Positions 4,541 to 18,338 of a DNA stretch of 37,456 nt are shown here, piece by piece (the stretch's first letter is position 1; every line of letters begins with the position of its first letter). The translations under genes were made by a program, and so were the position numbers. The notes under the pieces were generated by a model, which saw only the letters and a list, made by a program, of their open reading frames with translations, was not told the origin of the DNA and made no database searches. Source of the DNA: Acidobacteriota bacterium (lineage in GTDB: Bacteria; Acidobacteriota; UBA6911; RPQK01; JAJDTT01); assembly GCA_022827025.1 (NCBI GenBank), contig JAJDTT010000193.1:1-37456 (forward strand), read 5' to 3'.

Positions 4541-4808
4541 CGGGGCGGGTTGAGCCGGCGAAGCGGTCTGGAACCGGGCGATACCGGTGCCGTCAGGTGC
4601 CGGGAATGACCGCCGGAGCGAACTTCCGCATCCGATTCGTCCGCGTCGCCGGACCTGACCGCGATCCTCCGATCGATCGCGGCCGGCGTCTCGTTGCGCC
4701 ACGACACCTTCGAACCGATGGATCGCTCCAACTCGCAACGCGCCCCTGCGGTATGATGCGCAACGAATGATTCTTGCCCGCGCAAGCGGAGGACAGGAGA
4801 GACTTCTC

Positions 4809-5801
4809 ATGACAGGTCCGATACTTACGATCATTGTTTCGCTCGTGTTGAGCACTCCCGGTCTCGCCGTCCGGCTTCCCGCGGAGACCGCGGCGGTTCC
4901 GGGCCGTTCCGGGGCGGTTGCTGAATCCAAGCCCGAGGGTGTCCACTGCAAAGGGCAGCCCCAAGGCACGGCGTGCTGGATGGAGCTGGCCGATCATCCG
5001 GGATGTTACGTCTGGAACAGCTACTTGGAGCCGGACGAGACCTTGACCTGGACCGCAACGTGCGCCGAGGGGTTGGCTCAGGGCAAAGGCACGCTGACGG
5101 AGGTCTGGGAAGGGGGCAAAAAGAAAAAGGTAAAAACCGGGCGCATTGTGAAAGGAAAGCCGCACGGGCCGTGGGTCTACCGCGACCAGGATGGGAGCGA
5201 CTCGGAAGGCTCGTATGAAGAGGGGATGCGTCACGGCAAGTGGGTCGAGCGCGTGGCGGGCGGGACCGTCCAGGAAGGCCCGTATGAGGCGGGGAAACGG
5301 CACGGCAAGTGGTCCCTGCGCCTCGCTTCCGGGACCGTCATGGAGGGCCCGTTCAAGAAGGGGTACCAGGAGGGCTCGTGGGTGTTGCGTTTTGCTTCCG
5401 GGAACGTCTCGGAGGGCCCGTTCAAGGCGGGGATGCGTCATGGCCACTGGGTCGAGCGTTTGGCGGATGGGACCGTCCAGGAAGGCCCGTACGAGGCAGG
5501 GCAACGCCAGGGCAAGTGGGTCCTGCGCTTCGCTTCCGGGACCGTGATGGAAGGCCCGTTCGTGGCGGGGCAGCGTCAGGGTCACTGGGTCGAGCGCTAC
5601 GCGGATGGGGCCGTCCTGGAGGGCTCGTACGAGGCGGGCCAGGAGCACGGCCATTGGGTTGAGCGTTTGGCGGATGGGACCATCCAGGAAGGCCCGTATG
5701 AGGCGGGGAAGCGTCACGGATGGTGGTTCAAGCGCAGGAAAGGGGTCGTGGTTGAGGAAGCCTACTTTGTGAAGGGGGAAGGGGCGTGGGGCCAGAGTTA
5801 G
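4809..5801 (+). CDS. Secreted 23-residue-repeat (MORN_2-like) protein, paralog 1
   Basis: A 330-residue exported protein. The signal peptide (MTGPILTIIVSLVLSTPGLA) starts at the ATG at 4809, which has AGGAG upstream; a further ATG at 4767 would put a charged extension before it, so it was rejected. A four-cysteine head (HCKGQP, TACWME, GCYVWN, ATCAEG) is followed by eight near-perfect 23-residue repeats of the type GPYEAGKRHG.WVER.ADGTVQE at 5208-5759. This is the MORN_2/YwqK-like repeat, a beta-hairpin solenoid. The name 'antitoxin' attached to YwqK does not apply to a secreted protein. Function is unknown. A paralog lies at 8911-10026; the regularity suggests recent repeat expansion. Confidence 0.82.
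   Translation: MTGPILTIIVSLVLSTPGLAVRLPAETAAVPGRSGAVAESKPEGVHCKGQPQGTACWMELADHPGCYVWNSYLEPDETLTWTATCAEGLAQGKGTLTEVWEGGKKKKVKTGRIVKGKPHGPWVYRDQDGSDSEGSYEEGMRHGKWVERVAGGTVQEGPYEAGKRHGKWSLRLASGTVMEGPFKKGYQEGSWVLRFASGNVSEGPFKAGMRHGHWVERLADGTVQEGPYEAGQRQGKWVLRFASGTVMEGPFVAGQRQGHWVERYADGAVLEGSYEAGQEHGHWVERLADGTIQEGPYEAGKRHGWWFKRRKGVVVEEAYFVKGEGAWGQS
5208..5759 (+). repeat. Eight 69-bp coding repeats (23-residue MORN_2-like units)
   Basis: In-frame tandem repeats of 69 bases. Each unit encodes G-P-Y-E-A-G-K-R-H-G-x-W-V-x-R-x-x-x-G-x-V-x-E. Consecutive units share long identical DNA stretches such as GGGACCGT(C/G)ATGGA(A/G)GGCCCGTTC, so copy number could change by slippage or recombination. Confidence 0.85.
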
Positions 5802-5902: not shown

Positions 5903-6505
5903 ATGTCCAAGGAGGCCACCCCGGATCATCCCGTTCACAGATACATCTCGGCGCGCTGGAGTCCGTACGCCTTCTCACCGCGGCTGATCCCGCGGGAAGA
6001 TCTCTTCTCCATCTTTGAGGCGGCACGCTGGGCGGCATCGTCGTTCAACGAACAGCCGTGGCGCTATCTCGTCGCGAGCCGTGACCGGACGGAGGACTTC
6101 GAGAAGATCTTGAGTTGCCTGCTCGAGGGCAACCAGACCTGGGCCCGTGAAGTTCCGACCCTCGCGCTCGGGTGCATAAAGACGAGCTTCACCCACAACG
6201 GCAGGTTCAACCGCGTCGCGCAGCATGATCTGGGACTGGCTTCCGCGACCCTCACCTTCGAGGCGACGAGCCGGGGCGTCTATGTGCATCAAATGGCCGG
6301 AATTCGGCCCGGCAAGGCGCGGGAAGTGTTTTCCATCCCGGACGGGTTCGAGGCAGTAACGGCGCTGGCGCTCGGCTATCGGGCCGATGCAGGCGCTGGA
6401 GCCCCGGAATTGCGGGCACGAGACGAAGGTTCGCGCACCCGCCGGCCCCAAAGCGAGTTCGTTTTCGGCGCCGAGTGGGGCAAGCCGGGCCTCGGATCCA
6501 CGTAG
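5903..6505 (+). CDS. Nitroreductase family protein
   Basis: A 200-residue FMN-dependent nitroreductase-fold protein, predicted cytosolic and homodimeric as in the family. The N-terminus has the family pattern RYISARWSPYAFSPRLIPREDL and then AARWAASSFNEQPWRYLV, corresponding to the conserved A..APSa.N.QPWrf FMN-binding segment. The C-terminal part retains HDLGLASATLTFEATSRGVYVHQMAGI and then ALALGYR, as in classical members. It would reduce nitro groups, quinones or similar acceptors with NAD(P)H; the substrate is not predictable. The C-terminal tail is Arg-rich. It lies between the two 23-residue-repeat paralogs; no functional link is evident. Confidence 0.87.
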   Translation: MSKEATPDHPVHRYISARWSPYAFSPRLIPREDLFSIFEAARWAASSFNEQPWRYLVASRDRTEDFEKILSCLLEGNQTWAREVPTLALGCIKTSFTHNGRFNRVAQHDLGLASATLTFEATSRGVYVHQMAGIRPGKAREVFSIPDGFEAVTALALGYRADAGAGAPELRARDEGSRTRRPQSEFVFGAEWGKPGLGST

Positions 6506-8910: not shown

Positions 8911-10026
8911 ATGACAGGCTTGATCCGCGCCGTCGTTGCCTTCGTCTGGTTGAGTGCCCCCGGTATCGGTGGCCTCTGGTGCGAGACTCTCGCGGAACCG
9001 GGCGGGACCGGTGCGGGTCCCCGGCCTGCTCCCGAGGGGACCCTGTGCAAAGGACGGCCCGCGGGCACGTCCTGCTGGGTGGAGTTGGCCAACCTGCCGG
9101 GATGCTACGCCTGGAACAGCTATTTCCAGCCGGGCGAAGCCGTGACCTGGACCGCGGAGTGCGCGGAGGGGTTGGCTCGGGGAACAGGCACGCTCACGGA
9201 GGTCTGGGACGGGGGCAAGAAGACCAAGGAAAAAACAGGGTCCCTCGTGGATGGAAAGGCGCAGGGGCGGTGGATCTACCGCGACCAGGACGGGACCGTC
9301 GCGGAAGGCTCGTATGAGTCGGGTGAACGTCATGGCCATTGGGTCGAGCGCTTGCCGGACGGGACCGTCCAGGAAGGCCCCTACGAGGCGGGGAAAAGGC
9401 AGGGCCCGTGGGTTTTGCGCTTCGCCTCCGGGACCGTCATGGAGGGCCCGTTCCTGGCGGGGAAGCAGCAGGGCCGGTGGGTCATGCGCTTCGCTACGGG
9501 GAACGTTTCGGAAGGCTCGTATATGGCGGGAAAGCGCCACGGCCATTGGGTCGAACGATTCGCTTCCGGGACCGTTCAGGAAGGCACCTATGAGACAGGG
9601 AAACGCGAGGGCAGGTGGGTGTTGCGGTTCACTTCCGGGACCGTGATGGAAGGCCCGTTCGCGGCGGGAAAGCGTCACGGTCGTTGGGTCGAGCGCTACG
9701 GGGACGGGGGCGTGCAGGAAGGCCCGTATGAAGCGGGGAAGCGCCACGGTCATTGGGTGGAGCGCTACCCGGACGGGAACGTCCTGGAGGGTCCCTACGA
9801 GGCAGGGAAGGAGCAGGGCCACTGGGTCTTGCGTTTGCCGGACGGGGGTGTGCAGGAAGGTCCGTACGAGGCGGGGAAACGCCACGGCCGGTGGGTCGAG
9901 CGCGAGGCGAACGGGTACGTCATGGAAGGCCCCTATGAGGAATCGCTACGTCAGGGCTGGTGGGTGATGCGCAAGATGGGACGCGAGGTTGACAGAGCGT
10001 ACTTCGTGGATGGGGAAGGCCAGTGA
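8911..10026 (+). CDS. Secreted 23-residue-repeat (MORN_2-like) protein, paralog 2
   Basis: A 371-residue paralog of the protein at 4809-5801, with the same plan: signal peptide, four-Cys head (LCKGRP, TSCWVE, GCYAWN, AECAEG), and ten 23-residue repeats at 9307-9996 of the type GPYEAGKRHGHWVERYPDG.V.E. It closes with QGWWVMRK and AYFV.GEG, matching HGWWFKRR and AYFVKGEG in paralog 1. It has two more repeats than paralog 1. GGGAGAG precedes the start. The shared head, tail and repeat register show a duplication followed by repeat-number change. It is exported, with unknown function; the repeat family forms extended beta-hairpin arrays. Confidence 0.82.
   Translation: MTGLIRAVVAFVWLSAPGIGGLWCETLAEPGGTGAGPRPAPEGTLCKGRPAGTSCWVELANLPGCYAWNSYFQPGEAVTWTAECAEGLARGTGTLTEVWDGGKKTKEKTGSLVDGKAQGRWIYRDQDGTVAEGSYESGERHGHWVERLPDGTVQEGPYEAGKRQGPWVLRFASGTVMEGPFLAGKQQGRWVMRFATGNVSEGSYMAGKRHGHWVERFASGTVQEGTYETGKREGRWVLRFTSGTVMEGPFAAGKRHGRWVERYGDGGVQEGPYEAGKRHGHWVERYPDGNVLEGPYEAGKEQGHWVLRLPDGGVQEGPYEAGKRHGRWVEREANGYVMEGPYEESLRQGWWVMRKMGREVDRAYFVDGEGQ
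9307..9996 (+). repeat. Ten 69-bp coding repeats (23-residue MORN_2-like units)
   Basis: In-frame tandem repeats with the same 69-base period and consensus as those at 5208-5759. Variation is concentrated at repeat positions 12-18 (HG.WVERxxDG or QG.WVLRxxSG alternation), so units fall into at least two alternating subtypes. Confidence 0.85.
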
Positions 10027-11934: not shown

Positions 11935-12378
11935 TCAGCGTCGTTTCACGTCAATGGTTCGTCCGTAGATCCGGCGAGAGGGTGAGGTGTAATAGTCGTA
12001 GATCAGGATCCGCCCCGATCGTAGCTGGAGGGTGCATCCCGAGATGATGGGGCCGTCCCCCTGTTCCTCGGTGGGGAACCAAAGTTCCCAAGTCTTGCCG
12101 CCGTCGGTGGAGCGCACCGTCCGGGGGATGTCCCGCGGGTAGTTGGGTCCGGTGTACGACTCGGGATTGGGCCGGAGGACGGTCCCCACCACGATGATGG
12201 TCCCTTCCCGGATGGTGGTCATGTAGGGGAAGATGGCGTCTTCCATGACCACCCTTTGGGGTCCGACGAGGATCCGCAATGGTTCCTGTCCCGGCTTGGC
12301 GGCGCCCGCCGCCGGCGTCGGTTGGGCCCAGAGAACCAGCAAGCACACGATTGACAGGGTTCGGAGCCGCGCTGCCAT
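11935..12378 (-). pseudogene. Truncated BNR/sialidase-like secreted protein
   Basis: A 147-residue ORF beginning MAARLRTLSIVCLLVLWAQP (signal peptide) and containing a canonical Asp-box STDGGKTW near residue 98, with LQLRSGRILIYDYYTSP after it. These are features of the N-terminal blades of exo-alpha-sialidase-like six-bladed propellers, which normally need about 350-400 residues. The frame stops at DVKRR, and no continuation was recognised in the following 100 bases, so the gene looks truncated. GAGGAGGAGACG provides a ribosome-binding site, and it begins 5 bases after the stop of the degraded AlbA_2/HATPase gene, suggesting it may still be translated. Confidence 0.6.
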
Positions 12379-12383
12379 TGTCA

Positions 12384-13227
12384 CTATCGTCTCCTCCTCA
12401 GAGTTGAATCGAGGGAATCGAAACCGGACGAAAAACGCCCGGATTCTGCATAGCCCTGCATCACGCAGGCAGCGAAACCCGGCGCGGCGCAGAGCACGGT
12501 CATGGGCAGCCCTGCATAGAGGTCGAACTCGGCTCGACCGAACGTATCGGTGCGCTCTTCCCGATACGTATTGTTGGGATAGAGCAGCAGCACGTGTACG
12601 CTGGGCAACGGTTCTCCGGTCCCGTCGTGGCGGATCGTGATGCGCGCCGCGATTCCGTCCGGAGGAGGTGGACTCGCCGCCGGATGAACGAGTTTCAATT
12701 CCCTTTCGCCGATCAACTCGAAGACGGGCCTGTGACCGGACAGAGCGAAGGTCTCGTCCTCGATGACGGCGATACCCTCGCCGCGCCGTTCGATGAAGTA
12801 TCGTCGTCCGCCGGCTCCGGGCACGTCCGCGACCGGACACTGTCCCAGCCGGGACGCCAAGAGCTCGTTACGGGTGAACTGGCTGGTGCGCAGATCTTCG
12901 GTCGTCATGGAGTTGCAAAGGCCGCCGGGTGAGTAGAGCTCCAGCCTGTCGTCGAACATGAAGAGACGTATCTTCGATCCCCGCACGGCATAGTCCCGGT
13001 GCACGACGGCGTTCACCACGGCCTCGAAGACTGCGCGCTCACTGTATTGGGGCAGATCCTGGCGGGCGGGCCGTTTGCGGGCGGCGATGCGCCGGTTGCG
13101 GACCACGAAACGCATCGCGTCGGGGAGCGGAGACCCGGCGGCCCCAAACCTGCGCTTCCTTCAGTTCGAGATCGTTGTCTTCACCGACTCGAACCTGTTC
13201 CCAGAAACGGGGAATATCGATGGTCAT
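12384..13227 (-). pseudogene. AlbA_2/HATPase-type gene with internal deletion
   Basis: The 5' part (13227 down to about 13115) encodes an AlbA_2-like N-terminus, DLELKEAQVWGRRV then PRRDA. The frame then shifts, and the rest (12384-13115) encodes the C-terminal HATPase/winged-helix part: YSERAVFEAVVNAVVHRDY, SKIRLFMFDDRLELYSPGG, RYFIERRGEGIAV. The intact relative at 13295-14548 has about 205 residues between these points, so an internal deletion has removed them and broken the frame. After the shared region there is an extra domain of about 90 residues (ITIRHDGTGEPLPSVHVLLL, DTFGRAEFDLYAGL) resembling a carboxypeptidase-regulatory-like beta-sandwich, absent from the neighbour. The 243-codon 3' ORF could still produce a protein. 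Confidence 0.72.
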
Positions 13228-13294
13228 CGCAGCTATTCTAATCCGACGTCATCATCGGATTCGCGGTTGCGACCGACGCCGCGAACCGACCGTC

Positions 13295-14548
13295 TTACGC
13301 TGACGTCCCCTTCGTGCTTGCCGAAAAAATGGTCAGCAAAAGTTCGGAATCGTCGATGAGGCGATATACGGGCTTCTTTCCAGACAGTTCTTGACTCCTG
13401 TCCAGAATAATGGGAACGCCGTCCCCGCGCCTCTCCATGTAGAAACTTCGTCCCACGTCGCCGACCGGATCCTCCACCGGTGTCTCGGCCAACAGGGTTG
13501 TGATCAGTTCGTTCCGGGTGGACTGACGGAAGGCGATGTTGTCAACGGTCACGGTGTTGGGAAGAGCCCCCGGCGAATAGATCTCCAAGCGGTCGTCAAA
13601 CATGAAAAATCGTATTTTCGACGAGAAGATGGAATAGTCGCGGTGAGCCACGGCATTGACGATTGCTTCAAAGACCGCTCGCTCACTGAATTGTTTCACT
13701 TCGAAGCGATGTGGAATCTTCACGGCTGACACCGTCTGGTTTTTCCTGAGAAAGACCATGGCTCGTTCGATCTGTCGGTTCAGCGGACCCCGAATCCTCT
13801 GAGCATCAACCTGGTAATTGGAATCCTGCTTTTTTCCGCGGTAGCGCACGGCTTCGATGTAGGCGTTGGGGAAGAAGCGTTCGGGTTCCTCACAGCAGAA
13901 CAGAACGCCGGCGACTGAGGCTCGCACCGATCGATCGTCGTCCTCCGCCAGGAGACCCCGTTTGAGGAGCACGACCTCCGAGGGTTCAGGCGACCGGGTC
14001 GTGTAGTTTGTCCACAGGTGTTCCGACAGATCGGCCACGGTCGAATGCGGCGTCGCTTGTTCCTCGAACCGGATCAACCGGGCTTGGCTTCGCTGTTGGA
14101 ACTGCCGTGCGAGGTGTTCGGGTTCCATCTGTCGCTTCGAGCTTCCCTGGCGAAAGAAATATCCTCCCGGACTTCTGTGGACAAAGAGACTGCGGGGAAT
14201 TTCTATTTTGAGCACCGGTTGGAGATTGCCCAAGGTATCCGGGATCTCCATGCGGAAACAACGAAAAGCTAGAGGCGGCGTGACGCTCTCGTTACAGATC
14301 TCGTAGACGTACCGTTCCACGGCGTCAAGGCGTTCCACCGGAATCCCGATAACGTCCCGCGTTCTGTCGTCCACGCCCAGGACGAGCGTGCCGTCGTGGG
14401 TGTTGGCAAGCGCCGCCAATTCGTCGGCCAGTGCATCGCGCCTCGGATCGATAACCCGGTCGCCCCGGAACTGAACGGATTTGTACTCCAAGGAAGTATC
14501 TTCCCCGAGTCGGATCTTCCGCAACAGCTCTCCCGAGCTTTCAAACAT
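13295..14548 (-). CDS. AlbA_2 (Schlafen-type) DNA-binding and HATPase-domain protein
   Basis: A 417-residue protein of the COG2865-like group. The AlbA_2 domain occupies residues about 10-135: ESSGELLRKIRLGEDTSLEY, DALADELAALANTHDGTLVL, GGYFFRQGSSKRQM. The C-terminal GHKL/HATPase_c_4 domain contains FSERAVFEAIVNAVAHRDYS (N-box with E, N and D) and FFMFDDRLEIYSPG near residues 285-325, then a winged-helix-like end. Such proteins are usually called ATP-dependent transcriptional regulators or RecG-like, and related Schlafen/AlbA_2 domains occur in antiphage systems. The start codon overlaps the end of the PHP-ATPase gene by 8 bases, so the two are translationally coupled. A degraded relative lies 67 bases downstream. 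Confidence 0.85.
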   Translation of the reverse strand: MFESSGELLRKIRLGEDTSLEYKSVQFRGDRVIDPRRDALADELAALANTHDGTLVLGVDDRTRDVIGIPVERLDAVERYVYEICNESVTPPLAFRCFRMEIPDTLGNLQPVLKIEIPRSLFVHRSPGGYFFRQGSSKRQMEPEHLARQFQQRSQARLIRFEEQATPHSTVADLSEHLWTNYTTRSPEPSEVVLLKRGLLAEDDDRSVRASVAGVLFCCEEPERFFPNAYIEAVRYRGKKQDSNYQVDAQRIRGPLNRQIERAMVFLRKNQTVSAVKIPHRFEVKQFSERAVFEAIVNAVAHRDYSIFSSKIRFFMFDDRLEIYSPGALPNTVTVDNIAFRQSTRNELITTLLAETPVEDPVGDVGRSFYMERRGDGVPIILDRSQELSGKKPVYRLIDDSELLLTIFSASTKGTSA

Positions 14549-17339
14549 TTACTTCCTCAAGCGCAATGCGACGATAACGATGTTGGAATGCTTCGCGACC
14601 ACCTTCCATGATCGTGCAGATGGTCTCTCTGACCTGTCTCTCTTGTAGGCTACCGTCGCACTCTTTCTGCGTTTCTCCGGCAATGGCGTCGAGGGCCACC
14701 ACCAATTCCGCGTCGCCGTTGACGACGATGTTCGCGTTGTGTGTGACGACGATGGTCTGTCGACGGCGTTTGACCTCCCGCAGTTGGGTCACGATCAGTC
14801 CGTAGATCAGGTGGTTGTCCAAATCATCCTCCGGTTGGTCCAGAATCAGCGGTTCCTCACCGTAGGAGAGGAGAAAAGCCAGAAGCGCCGCCGTCTTCTG
14901 GCCGGGTGAACCCTCGCGAATCGATCGGAAGCGCCGTCCATCACCGGCCGCGCTGTAGCGAATCTCCAAGGAATCTTCCGGGAACCAGAGGTCGAGACGG
15001 TCCATGGCTTCAGGTGGGAGTCTGGAAATATGGGTGGCGAATCGTCGATCTGCCACAGCGAAACGTTGGTCCTTTGCAACTAAATTTTCGTAGTGACCCG
15101 AGGCGATCGCTTTGAGGTAGGTTTTGATGAACTTGAGATTTTGTTCCACGGCATCAGTGCCATGGCTGTCTGTGTAGATACTTCCAAGCAGTCCCTCGCC
15201 GCCCAGCGATCCGATGTCTCTCTTGAAGCGTCCGTCCGTAATATGGAGTATTCGACGCAACTCGCCTTCGACCGTCTCTAGGGCACCGTAAGGGACGACC
15301 TTGATTTGGACATAGCGGTTGTCTCGTAGCACCGTGTCAATGAACCTTCGACGAGATTCCGTCAGCTTCCGTCGAATCTCCAGCAGATGCTGCAAGGAGG
15401 AGTCAGCCTGAGTCTTCAGCGCATCGATTCGTTCTGTGCGAGCTTCCAGATCTTGCAGCCGTTGCTCGACGGCTTGCCGGGCCTGGACGAACTCGCCGTA
15501 TGCTGCGGGATCACCGGCCCCTTCTCTGGCCAGATTCTCGCGCAATTCCCGGTAGGCTCGATCAGCAGCGTCGACCTCCCGTTTCCAGGACGATTCCGAT
15601 TTCTGTTTCCGCCAACGGGTGGCAACTGCACCCGCTTGTGACGCGAGTGCTTCAATCTCTTTTCGGATCCTGTCCAGATCAGTACACGCTTGGGCCGCAA
15701 GGCTCTTCAATTCAACGTCTGCCTGTGAATCTGAATCGAAAGACGTTCCGTCGAGGGGGTCGGGGACGATCTCGGCCGCGGCTTCCCGCAAGCGTTGTGC
15801 TATTCCGACCCAGCTTTCTTCCCAGTTATCGACGTCCCGTTGCTGGCGGCTTCGCTTTTGGAAGGATCTGAGGATTTCAGTGTGTCCCGATTGTTCGAAG
15901 ACGTTCAGCTTTCTCTTCACGTCATCGAGTTCTCCCCGAAGACGCGGCGCCTCGGTAAGTCCGGCTGCCAACTCTCTGGCCTTGGCGCGAAGAGAGAGAA
16001 ATCGATTTTCCAGTGCCTTCCGTTCTTGAGACCAGGAATGACGATCCACCTCCGGGGCCTCGTCGATGATCTTGAGGAGGGACAGGGGGGTTCCGGCGAG
16101 CTGGAAGATTTGCTTCTGACTGTAGATTCGGACGGGGAATCGTTGCCGAACATCGCCTTGAGCAGGTCTCCACCGTCCGTCAACTTCTTGTTCGATCGGT
16201 TCAAGATCGCTGGCTGGATTCCACTGAATACGAAACCGGGAGCCGTTTTTCCGATAAACGACCTTGATTTCAGCCTCTTCAGTAAGCAATCCATCATCTT
16301 CCCTGTTTAGATAGACTCGACCATACTTTTCAAGCTCGTGCTTCAAACGTTCCGGCGGCTCCCCTTCCCGTCGAAGCGCAATCCGAAGAAACTCGACGAG
16401 AGTGGATTTCCCCGTGCCCCGTCCTCCTATGACGGCGTTGAACCATGGGTTCAGCGTCTGAAAAAAGGGATTCGCCCGTCCGATGTAGCGACCGTTGGAA
16501 ACCGCGATCTTTTCGATGACGGAATCCACATGGCGGTTAGGATCATTTCCCGCCGCAGAGTCCGTCTGGTCGGACCGGCGTACGGAAAGCTGGCCGTCCA
16601 ACAGGGCGAGTCGCAGTCCCTCGATGCTGGGCGATCCCATCTTGACCCAGGTAAAACGGCTGTCGGGACATATCTGTTCTGCGCTCCCGACAGGATGGTG
16701 AGCGTCTGAGCCGAGAATTTCAGTCCAGCGCAACTTCTTGTCGATGTAAATCTGTGGCTTTTGATATCGTTGATTCAGGAGTTCCATCGCGAAGATGCCG
16801 TCGCATTCCAATGCCGATTCCAATGTCGACCCCGACCATCGAAAAAGCCCATTATCACCATCCACGTGCGCGGGAATGGCGATGCCGCCAGACGACATGA
16901 TGGTCTCTACCACTTCGCCAAACGACTTGTTTGTGACGGTATCGCTCCGCCCCGGAGTGCCTGTGTATCCGATTGCACCGCGAAGCACGTCCAGGTCCGA
17001 AGACGCCTTCGAAGGATCGAAGATCGCGAGAAGATGGATCCCGCCGTGGACCGAGATTTCCATGCCTGGGAAAAGATGAAGTTCGCGATAATCTGGATGA
17101 GGATTTTCTTCCAGTTCCCTGAGTGCGTCCTTCAGTCGGTCGATCCAATGTCCCGTGTTGTGATCGGTCACGGCGACGCAATCCATCTCGGCTCGCATAT
17201 AATCCAGAAGCCACTCTTGCGGCGTACGCTGTCTCAGCGTCTCTTGGTCAGTCCCTTTGCCGTAATCGTCCGATGCCGGCGTATGGGTATGGAAATCGAA
17301 CTTCCACCAACGCGCACCATTCCATCGCCAGCCAGTCAT
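14541..17339 (-). CDS. PHP-domain plus SMC/AAA-type ATPase, TrlF-like
   Basis: A 932-residue cytosolic protein. The N-terminal PHP metal-dependent hydrolase domain (residues 1-260) has all expected motifs: FDFHTHTPASDD, VAVTDHNTG, LFPGMEISVHGG, IAIPAHVDG and ILGSDAHHP. An ABC/SMC-like ATPase follows, with Walker A GGRGTGKST near residue 300, a long coiled-coil middle (about 390-640), a signature-like SPGQKTAALLAFLL, Walker B LILDQPEDDLD near 830 and switch His in VTHNANI. This matches the TrlF-type architecture; PHP domains act as nucleases or phosphatases, so ATP-gated nucleic-acid cleavage is likely but inferred. The start at 17339 is fixed by an ATGA overlap with the small upstream ORF; an ATG at 17378 was rejected. 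AlbA_2/HATPase gene follows with an 8-base overlap. Confidence 0.85.
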   Translation of the reverse strand: MTGWRWNGARWWKFDFHTHTPASDDYGKGTDQETLRQRTPQEWLLDYMRAEMDCVAVTDHNTGHWIDRLKDALRELEENPHPDYRELHLFPGMEISVHGGIHLLAIFDPSKASSDLDVLRGAIGYTGTPGRSDTVTNKSFGEVVETIMSSGGIAIPAHVDGDNGLFRWSGSTLESALECDGIFAMELLNQRYQKPQIYIDKKLRWTEILGSDAHHPVGSAEQICPDSRFTWVKMGSPSIEGLRLALLDGQLSVRRSDQTDSAAGNDPNRHVDSVIEKIAVSNGRYIGRANPFFQTLNPWFNAVIGGRGTGKSTLVEFLRIALRREGEPPERLKHELEKYGRVYLNREDDGLLTEEAEIKVVYRKNGSRFRIQWNPASDLEPIEQEVDGRWRPAQGDVRQRFPVRIYSQKQIFQLAGTPLSLLKIIDEAPEVDRHSWSQERKALENRFLSLRAKARELAAGLTEAPRLRGELDDVKRKLNVFEQSGHTEILRSFQKRSRQQRDVDNWEESWVGIAQRLREAAAEIVPDPLDGTSFDSDSQADVELKSLAAQACTDLDRIRKEIEALASQAGAVATRWRKQKSESSWKREVDAADRAYRELRENLAREGAGDPAAYGEFVQARQAVEQRLQDLEARTERIDALKTQADSSLQHLLEIRRKLTESRRRFIDTVLRDNRYVQIKVVPYGALETVEGELRRILHITDGRFKRDIGSLGGEGLLGSIYTDSHGTDAVEQNLKFIKTYLKAIASGHYENLVAKDQRFAVADRRFATHISRLPPEAMDRLDLWFPEDSLEIRYSAAGDGRRFRSIREGSPGQKTAALLAFLLSYGEEPLILDQPEDDLDNHLIYGLIVTQLREVKRRRQTIVVTHNANIVVNGDAELVVALDAIAGETQKECDGSLQERQVRETICTIMEGGREAFQHRYRRIALEEVNV

Positions 17340-17494
17340 GGCTTGTCTCCCGTTCGTGTGAGCGCTTGGTCGTACCACATGAGGAGCTTGGGATCCTCGT
17401 GGAGAATCGGTTCGGGGATCTTTCGGGCAACGGCGATGACGGTGGCGTAGTCGCGTTCCTGCATTGCCATGATCCGGTCAGCAACCGATTCCAC
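17336..17494 (-). CDS. Small ORF (52 residues) coupled to the PHP-ATPase gene
   Basis: A GTG-started ORF preceded by AGGGAAAG and ending in a TGA that overlaps the PHP-ATPase start as ATGA. The product begins VESVADRIMAMQERDYATVI and ends MWYDQALTRTGDKP. It looks coding: amphipathic helices, no low-complexity or Arg-rich shadow signature, and codon use like its neighbours. In-frame sequence upstream is closed by a stop 15 bases before the GTG, so it is either a genuine small protein or the remnant of a longer gene. It may be a regulatory subunit or antitoxin-like partner; no family is recognised. Confidence 0.55.
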   Translation of the reverse strand: MESVADRIMAMQERDYATVIAVARKIPEPILHEDPKLLMWYDQALTRTGDKP

Positions 17495-17728
17495 TTGAGT
17501 TCTTTCCCTTCACGCTGTGGCGTTCCGGACGACTGTTCGTCAAAATTGTTTCAGTGACGATATTCGCTCGGCTGTTGGCTCCCCCAAGTAGCTGTCACCC
17601 TGTGCTCCGGCAACGGTTCGGGCACGGATGTCAGAACCACGCGCAGAAGGGAGCACATGACCAATGCCAAGAAGGTAGCATGAAGAAAACTCAGGCTGCT
17701 ACAGCGATGACGGGTTGCCCGAGCCCGG

Positions 17729-18202
17729 TCAAGCCATGCGGGACGGAGGCTCCACGGTGGGTTTGAAGATCTCCAGCAATTTCTCCCGCCGGTAGTCGAA
17801 GATCCGCTTCACGTCTCTCCCGACCGCCAACCGGTTCACCAGCCCGCCGCCCCAGACGGCGTACCGAACCGTGTCCTCGCAGACCGCTCCATGCTCCGAG
17901 TCGCGAAATCGGTGCTCGTGGACCCAGAGGCGGTACGGACCCCTGACCTGCCGGTCGACGAATCGATGGGGTGGCTCCCAGGCCGTGATTTCGCTGACCC
18001 AACGGATCGGTACTCCCCGGAGGCGCAAACGGTATTCGATCCGGGTTCCCGCCTGCATCCGAATCGGCCCGGGCGTGACCACCTGGAATCGGAGCCAGGG
18101 AGGGGTCAGCCTCTCCAGATTGAAGGCGTCCGAGAAGAAGGGAAAAACGTCTGAGGTCCGCCGTGCGACCCGGACTTCGCTGTTCAGCTCGAAGATTCTC
18201 AT
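17729..18202 (-). CDS. SRPBCC (START-like) family protein
   Basis: A 157-residue SRPBCC/polyketide-cyclase-like protein with a hydrophobic ligand-binding helix-grip fold. It begins MRIFELNSEVRVARRTSDVF and has the family landmarks FFSDAFNLERLTPPWLRF, GTRIEYRLRLRGVPIRW, SEITAWEPPHRFVDRQVRGPY and WVHEHRF, corresponding to the beta-strands and the D..v...P..w.hEh pattern of cell-division-inhibitor/SRPBCC proteins. It ends with a helix containing FDYRREKLLEIF. The ligand is unknown. The start at 18202 is chosen because the fold begins there; an upstream in-frame ATG adds an Arg/Pro-rich stretch. It is divergent from the aldolase gene at 18339. Confidence 0.82.
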   Translation of the reverse strand: MRIFELNSEVRVARRTSDVFPFFSDAFNLERLTPPWLRFQVVTPGPIRMQAGTRIEYRLRLRGVPIRWVSEITAWEPPHRFVDRQVRGPYRLWVHEHRFRDSEHGAVCEDTVRYAVWGGGLVNRLAVGRDVKRIFDYRREKLLEIFKPTVEPPSRMA

Positions 18203-18338
18203 GCAGTGCCTCCAGGTTGACCGCCGAGTTTCCCCTGGTCGATCGAGTCGCGGCGGGCCGGGGCTCGGGAATCCCTGCGCCACCGCTGTCCACAATTCAG
18301 TCTATCCCAGGTAAACTGACGCCGAATCGGAGGTTTCC

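Follow-up and report, generated by a model that had tools for sequence, protein, structure and literature searches.

PADLOC's HEC families owe their name to cargo genes embedded in methylase-helicase-ATPase systems. Type 3 BREX is defined by the set BrxC, PglXI, PglZ, BrxHII, and BrxF, and the Ppl family, represented by NCBIfam NF042955 and by PADLOC Ppl, has a full-length PHP plus ABC/SMC ATPase build. A BREX survey (PMC12839542, section 35) lists Schlafen RNases with a C-terminal histidine-kinase-like domain among BREX-linked effectors, found in at least 1017 taxa, and its text makes no mention of PHP. In SLFN13, the catalytic triad consists of E205, E210, and D248 (PMC5862951). Our search of the literature under the name TrlF returned nothing useful.

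Here we describe a locus in a 37,456-nt stretch of DNA (hereafter the window) from an Acidobacteriota bacterium. This locus very likely represents a horizontally acquired trlF-albA_2 defence cassette, of a type that is found both behind a BREX methyltransferase gene and alone, and the small ORF in front of it a recent scar of pglXI. Three ORFs had been reported in an initial annotation, and their coordinates, strand, lengths, and start codons all agreed with our re-check:

13295-14548, minus strand: AlbA_2/GHKL ORF (417 aa)
14541-17339, minus strand: TrlF-family ORF (932 aa, ATG start)
TrlF residues 1-260 (approximately): N-terminal PHP metal-hydrolase domain
TrlF residues 305-312, 831-842, and 866-868: ABC/SMC-type ATPase motifs (Walker A, Walker B/LDQPEDDLDN, and H-loop THN, respectively)
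17336-17494, minus strand: the 'hidden small ORF' (52 aa, GTG start), located 5' of trlF

The TGA of the small ORF and the ATG of trlF overlap by 4 bases (ATGA), and trlF and albA_2 overlap by 8 bases (14541-14548).

The trlF-albA_2 pair and its genomic contexts

The domain assignments made for the two large proteins in the initial annotation, a TrlF-like PHP plus ABC/SMC ATPase and an AlbA_2/HATPase protein, were both supported by profile searches. NCBIfam NF045780 (TrlF) aligned with residues 6-924 at model positions 1-943 of 944, yielding 614.3 bits (cut-off, 350 bits), and the 417-aa protein exceeded the cut-offs of both Pfam SLFN_AlbA_2 (58.5 bits versus 25.3) and Pfam HATPase_c_4 (65.2 bits versus 26). 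The PHP ligands (H17, H19, D59, H60, E94, H158, D212, and H214) and the Walker A/B and H-loop motifs of TrlF are near-invariant in 84-88 homologous loci, and the GHKL motifs of the AlbA_2 protein are likewise near-invariant across homologous loci. Acidic residues of the latter are also conserved (E16 in 67/67, E21 in 66/67, and D61 in 63/67). Besides the DNA-binding partner suggested in the initial annotation, these residues may also fit a Schlafen-type RNase; that the protein is an RNase appears plausible from its sequence, albeit short of probable.

A scan of the genome collection identified 80 TrlF loci; adjacency was scored in 78 homologous loci and the pglXI tail was sought in 76 upstream regions. 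The coupling of the two large genes proposed previously was confirmed: far from being rarely adjacent elsewhere, trlF and albA_2 are neighbours in 59 of the 78 loci, with an overlap of exactly 8 bases in 34. Because this adjacency and overlap recur across many phyla, they exceed what is expected by chance, and trlF-albA_2 represents a conserved two-gene operon.

The pair occurs between pglXI and pglZ or brxHII of type 3 BREX loci. Full-length pglXI is located directly 5' of trlF-albA_2 in three loci (L048, L052, and L060), with the same stop/start overlap as in the window, and L041 contains a distant trlF at the corresponding position:

L048: brxC-alb-pglXI-trlF-albA_2-pglZ
L052: brxF-brxC-pglXI-trlF-albA_2-brxHII
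L060: pglXI-trlF-albA_2-pglZ
L041: brxC-alb-pglXI-distant trlF-pglZ

The pair also occurs between pglX and pglZ of a brxL-carrying BREX type, where brxL follows pglZ (L084, L088, L094, and L112, and partly L122). A locus of this kind is present on contig C318 of the same genome (L038 and L202; brxC-...-pglX-trlF-albA_2-albA_2-pglZ-brxL), and its pair shows 40% (TrlF) and 49% (AlbA_2) identity to that of the window. This BREX locus also holds a Dsr1-like gene. The embedding of the pair in BREX loci bears out the immunity setting that had been proposed for the cassette. TrlF is patchily distributed, any match being found in 9 of 40 relatives, and the pair is best read as BREX-associated cargo that also moves alone.

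A viral origin was considered and rejected: viral contigs contained one distant TrlF relative (36% identity) and no relative of P0002, and PHROG was nearly empty of matches (none for P0001 or P0003 and one DNA-helicase PHROG for P0002).

The small ORF joins a pglXI 3' end to foreign sequence

The 52-residue product had no match in Pfam or NCBIfam. Its residues 9-50, however, matched residues 1025-1066 of the 1068-residue PADLOC MTase_II model (PDLC03346; E 2e-18), and the product also matched residues 878-918 of 919 in PADLOC PglXI (E 2e-15). About 9 unrelated codons form the 5' end of the ORF, and the rest corresponds to the last ~43 codons of pglXI from type 3 BREX; homology to pglXI at the DNA level is limited to the last ~130 nt. 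The same motif forms the C-terminus of annotated methyltransferases within type 3 BREX loci on plasmids (Roseomonas, Leisingera, Roseicitreum, and Enterococcus), and in the Geoalkalibacter plasmid pGSUB1, it is present as a fragment without a start codon immediately 5' of an ATPase gene. The small ORF is a pglXI 3' end joined to foreign sequence, and, as judged from these alignments, it is virtually certain to be a stub of that gene. No BREX core gene was found in the window, which holds just these last ~43 codons of pglXI and thus lacks the type 3 BREX set. No second copy of the pglXI tail was found in the same genome, and the idea that the ORF is a remnant of a pglXI located elsewhere in that genome was rejected because the tail is single-copy there.

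Comparison with sister genomes defined the following features around the cassette:

12451-13235, minus strand: remnant of a resident AlbA_2/HATPase plus CarboxypepD_reg gene (662-bp internal deletion; 581 aa and intact in G003)
13235-17765 (approximately), minus strand: inserted segment (~4.5 kb), absent from three sister genomes
17729-18295, minus strand: polyketide-cyclase-like gene, outside the cassette and a syntenic flank in the sister genomes; its last codons differ

Three congeners lack 13235-17765 but possess the flanks, which on one side comprise polyketide-cyclase-like and HpcH genes, and the insertion is private to the window lineage within its genus. Its place is a site of turnover: G003 contains the intact 581-aa AlbA_2/CarboxypepD_reg gene at this site, in agreement with the degraded AlbA_2 relative and the locus turnover noted previously, and G001 contains a different, NYN/DUF88-like gene (judged by eye). 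No recombinase was found in the insert and no target duplication is visible. An integrase-borne element was rejected as an explanation because the insert contains no integrase, the only related finding being a serine-recombinase-like fragment beside the stub of L074.

Several further observations were made. Relative to G003, at least three deletions are present beside the insertion at 11935-13235, namely an apparently in-frame loss in a BNR/sialidase-like gene, a loss of ~345 bp near 12447, and the 662-bp deletion in the resident AlbA_2 gene. L049 contains a second AlbA_2 gene beside trlF-albA_2 (4784-5603), which is missing the same middle part as the degraded copy of the window. Two internally repetitive ORFs of the window (4767-5801 and 8911-10026) cross-match within and between sister genomes and have a repeat step of about 69 nt.

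We propose that a break within the last ~130 bases of pglXI freed the cassette, or an ancestor of it, from a type 3 BREX locus, and that the trlF start region, which overlaps the pglXI stop, would have been kept in the transfer. The direction of this movement, from BREX to the outside, is inferred from the truncation of pglXI. In the TrlF tree, the window sequence is sister to that of the intact locus L048 (support 97), and that of the stub-bearing L034 groups with that of the intact locus L052 (100). Stubs are scattered over this tree, with six changes of state for six rows.

Breakpoints and fate of detached pglXI ends

Genome searches with a pglXI-tail profile, combined with inspection, identified 13 loci, including the window, in which no more than the last ~200 bases of pglXI survive. 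Stubs are located 5' of trlF in the window, L034, L045, L074, L184, L186, and L044 (barely detectable) and 5' of HEC-01A-like ATPases in L166 and L185. Further stubs precede IetAS (L162), a related ATPase (L004), and a small gene (L167), and the last one lies inside a BREX-3 cargo array (L159). Longer pglXI remnants are rare (L161 and L188). The 12 mapped stubs all begin to match pglXI DNA at a distance of 107-196 nt from its stop codon, the distance in the window being ~130 nt. Among the 14 non-intact, non-edge cases, 12 have their breakpoint within the last 66 of ~930 codons; the binomial probability under uniformity is about 1e-12, a value that ignores shared ancestry and detection bias and serves as a guide only.

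The pglXI 3' end might therefore be a dedicated exchange site, at which cargo recombines in a site-specific or homology-guided manner and leaves the displaced stub before the older cargo. We offer this tentatively, as an addition to the scar explanation and no alternative to it. The narrow range of the mapped breaks and their concentration in the last 66 codons speak in its favour, as do the very varied cargo in the slot behind pglXI and the order seen within the single BREX locus of L159 (intact pglXI, new cargo, pglXI stub, and older cargo). However, integrases are absent from both the window insert and the L159 cargo, the breakpoints are scattered over ~90 nt with no single core, and target-site duplication was not seen. 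It is equally doubtful, though possible, that the last ~110-200 bases of pglXI are a preferred entry and exit site for unrelated cargos (trlF-albA_2, HEC-01A-like, IetAS, and others), of which the detached ends, including the window ORF, would be the footprints.

In the intact type 3 BREX locus of L159 (6506-10973), pglXI is followed by DUF488, DuOB, DUF3644, the 25-residue pglXI remnant, another gene, and brxHII, an array that looks like stacked cargo insertions. At L074 (4307-4933), the serine-recombinase-like fragment, recognized by eye and without a Pfam match in the stretch tested, is encoded on the opposite strand and overlaps the start of the pglXI stub. A short pglXI-tail match on a contig of the viral collection (L126, about 6001-6078), 5' of a 241-aa ORF, is possibly another stub. 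A weak, start-bearing ORF resembling the pglXI tail (58-aa frame), located 5' of a 710-aa AlbA_2-like gene (L042, 5317-5436), was left out of the stub count.

Ten of the 13 stubs cannot be read as ORFs: seven contain stops or lack a start codon ahead of the homologous part, two carry a frameshift, and one (L044) is almost erased. Several loci come from metagenome bins, in which misassembly could account for a frameshift. The three potentially translatable stubs are those of the window, L034, and L045; according to our reading of PDC-M24B matches, the L034 stub forms a fusion with a truncated DUF1828-like ORF. L045 and L074 have 45% of tail residues in common versus 79% of TrlF residues, which suggests that these old stubs evolve as if free of constraint. 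The window and L048 have 91% of the tail in common (pN/pS 0.07) versus 65% of TrlF, and the window stub therefore either belonged until recently to a gene under constraint or remains under constraint today. We favour the former because the insertion is private to the lineage.

The initial annotation had proposed that the cassette comprises three genes, the small ORF being a possible accessory or restraint. This part of the proposal was not supported, as the ORF is the 3' end of pglXI. It is also not kept upstream of TrlF homologues, a trace being present in 6 of the 76 upstream regions, three of which are intact pglXI. A general accessory role is disfavoured by this absence, and a conserved accessory gene was rejected on the same ground and because most stubs are untranslatable. 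The small ORF is thus highly likely to be a scar and no working gene. The window stub may nevertheless be translated, having an open frame, a GTG start, a plausible purine-rich ribosome site, and few amino-acid changes.

If so, ribosomes could re-initiate at the overlapping trlF ATG, and the stub would be a translated leader that sustains trlF expression and is kept for translational coupling, its peptide itself being irrelevant. Consistent with this, the ATGA overlap of intact pglXI-trlF persists in L034, L045, L074, and the window, the window has the GTG start and purine-rich site, and L045, though strongly diverged, still has a start codon, located where the preceding gene ends. We nonetheless consider a leader unlikely: start codons are missing from the stubs of L074 and L184, and the L186 stub is frameshifted, with trlF still downstream in all three (in two pieces in L074), and the last codons would suffice for coupling, with no need for ~40. 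If the stub is a scar, as we prefer, it would be inert as a protein and bound to decay, as in related loci.

Possible functions and comparison with known systems

On the basis of the conserved active-site residues and the BREX-linked Schlafens described in PMC12839542, we envisage a sensing ATPase that gates a PHP hydrolase, together with a Schlafen-like second effector or regulator. The ABC/SMC-type ATPase of TrlF would sense an invader- or damage-associated nucleic-acid state, and ATP binding or hydrolysis would then allow the PHP hydrolase to cleave nucleic acid. The AlbA_2/GHKL protein made alongside TrlF would be either a second effector, in that case probably a Schlafen-type RNase, or a regulator. 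Within BREX, the pair could serve as a reserve effector in case the core is overcome, and outside BREX as a small abortive or restrictive system. The sequences indicate that the pair is probably an antiphage module, and they tip the balance slightly towards a PHP nuclease gated by the ATPase.

TrlF and AlbA_2 might instead form a housekeeping repair or regulatory pair with no defence role, given that PHP and ATPase families are also found in repair. This is quite improbable in view of the patchy distribution of TrlF, the restriction of the insertion to one lineage, the embedding of the pair in BREX, and the likeness of TrlF to Ppl. Least credible of all is an updated form of the earlier restraint idea, a functional peptide that mimics the PglXI C-terminal helices and docks on or restrains TrlF: the tail is predicted to be helical (pLDDT 74-84 in the segment; mean 55.7 for the PglXI C-terminus, a low value for which we relied on the model for the helical tail only), its amino acids are strongly conserved between the window and L048, and it is fused to the truncated DUF1828-like ORF in L034, but most TrlF homologues have no such tail upstream, it cannot be translated in the majority of stub loci, it occurs equally before unrelated genes (HEC-01A and IetAS), and the window copy is devoid of the first helix of the terminal unit.

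Reading the small ORF as a scar removes a false new small gene and replaces it with a traceable history, in which a scrap of BREX labels cargo that once resided behind pglXI, so that the traffic of defence genes becomes measurable from sequence alone. A PHP-ATPase/Schlafen pair also joins the list of BREX-linked effectors, among which the 2026 survey (PMC12839542) includes Schlafens in a text without PHP. Caution is warranted for short ORFs that overlap the start of a defence gene, as they may be what is left of an upstream partner that has been lost. Were the clustered breakpoints to reflect a genuine exchange site, this would be relevant to the assembly of defence islands.

Among the known systems, Ppl resembles the window TrlF in its PHP plus ABC/SMC ATPase build, and the two align end to end; the score of 580.9 bits is below the NF042955 equivalog cut-off of 1000 bits, and the protein is related to Ppl but not classed as such. 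Neither the NF045780 nor the Ppl family model includes an AlbA_2/GHKL partner, whereas the window TrlF is paired with one. In the AlbA_2 protein, the spacing of E16, E21, and D61 along the sequence is much like that of the SLFN13 triad (PMC5862951). The Schlafens of PMC12839542 have the AlbA_2/SLFN and GHKL domains and the BREX linkage in common with the window protein, but are reported with a further wHTH, which Pfam did not detect in the latter. HEC-01A-like ATPases take the same kind of position as trlF-albA_2, also with a pglXI stub (L166 and L185), although HEC cargo is an OLD-like ATPase and the window cargo a PHP-ATPase plus Schlafen pair. Type 3 BREX (with PglXI also termed BrxXI) is the source of the 52-residue ORF, whereas the window is without its core genes. 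The type 1-like BREX on C318 (brxC, pglX, pglZ, and brxL) uses a different methyltransferase without the PglXI tail, and trlF-albA_2 is nevertheless likewise embedded in it, between pglX and pglZ.
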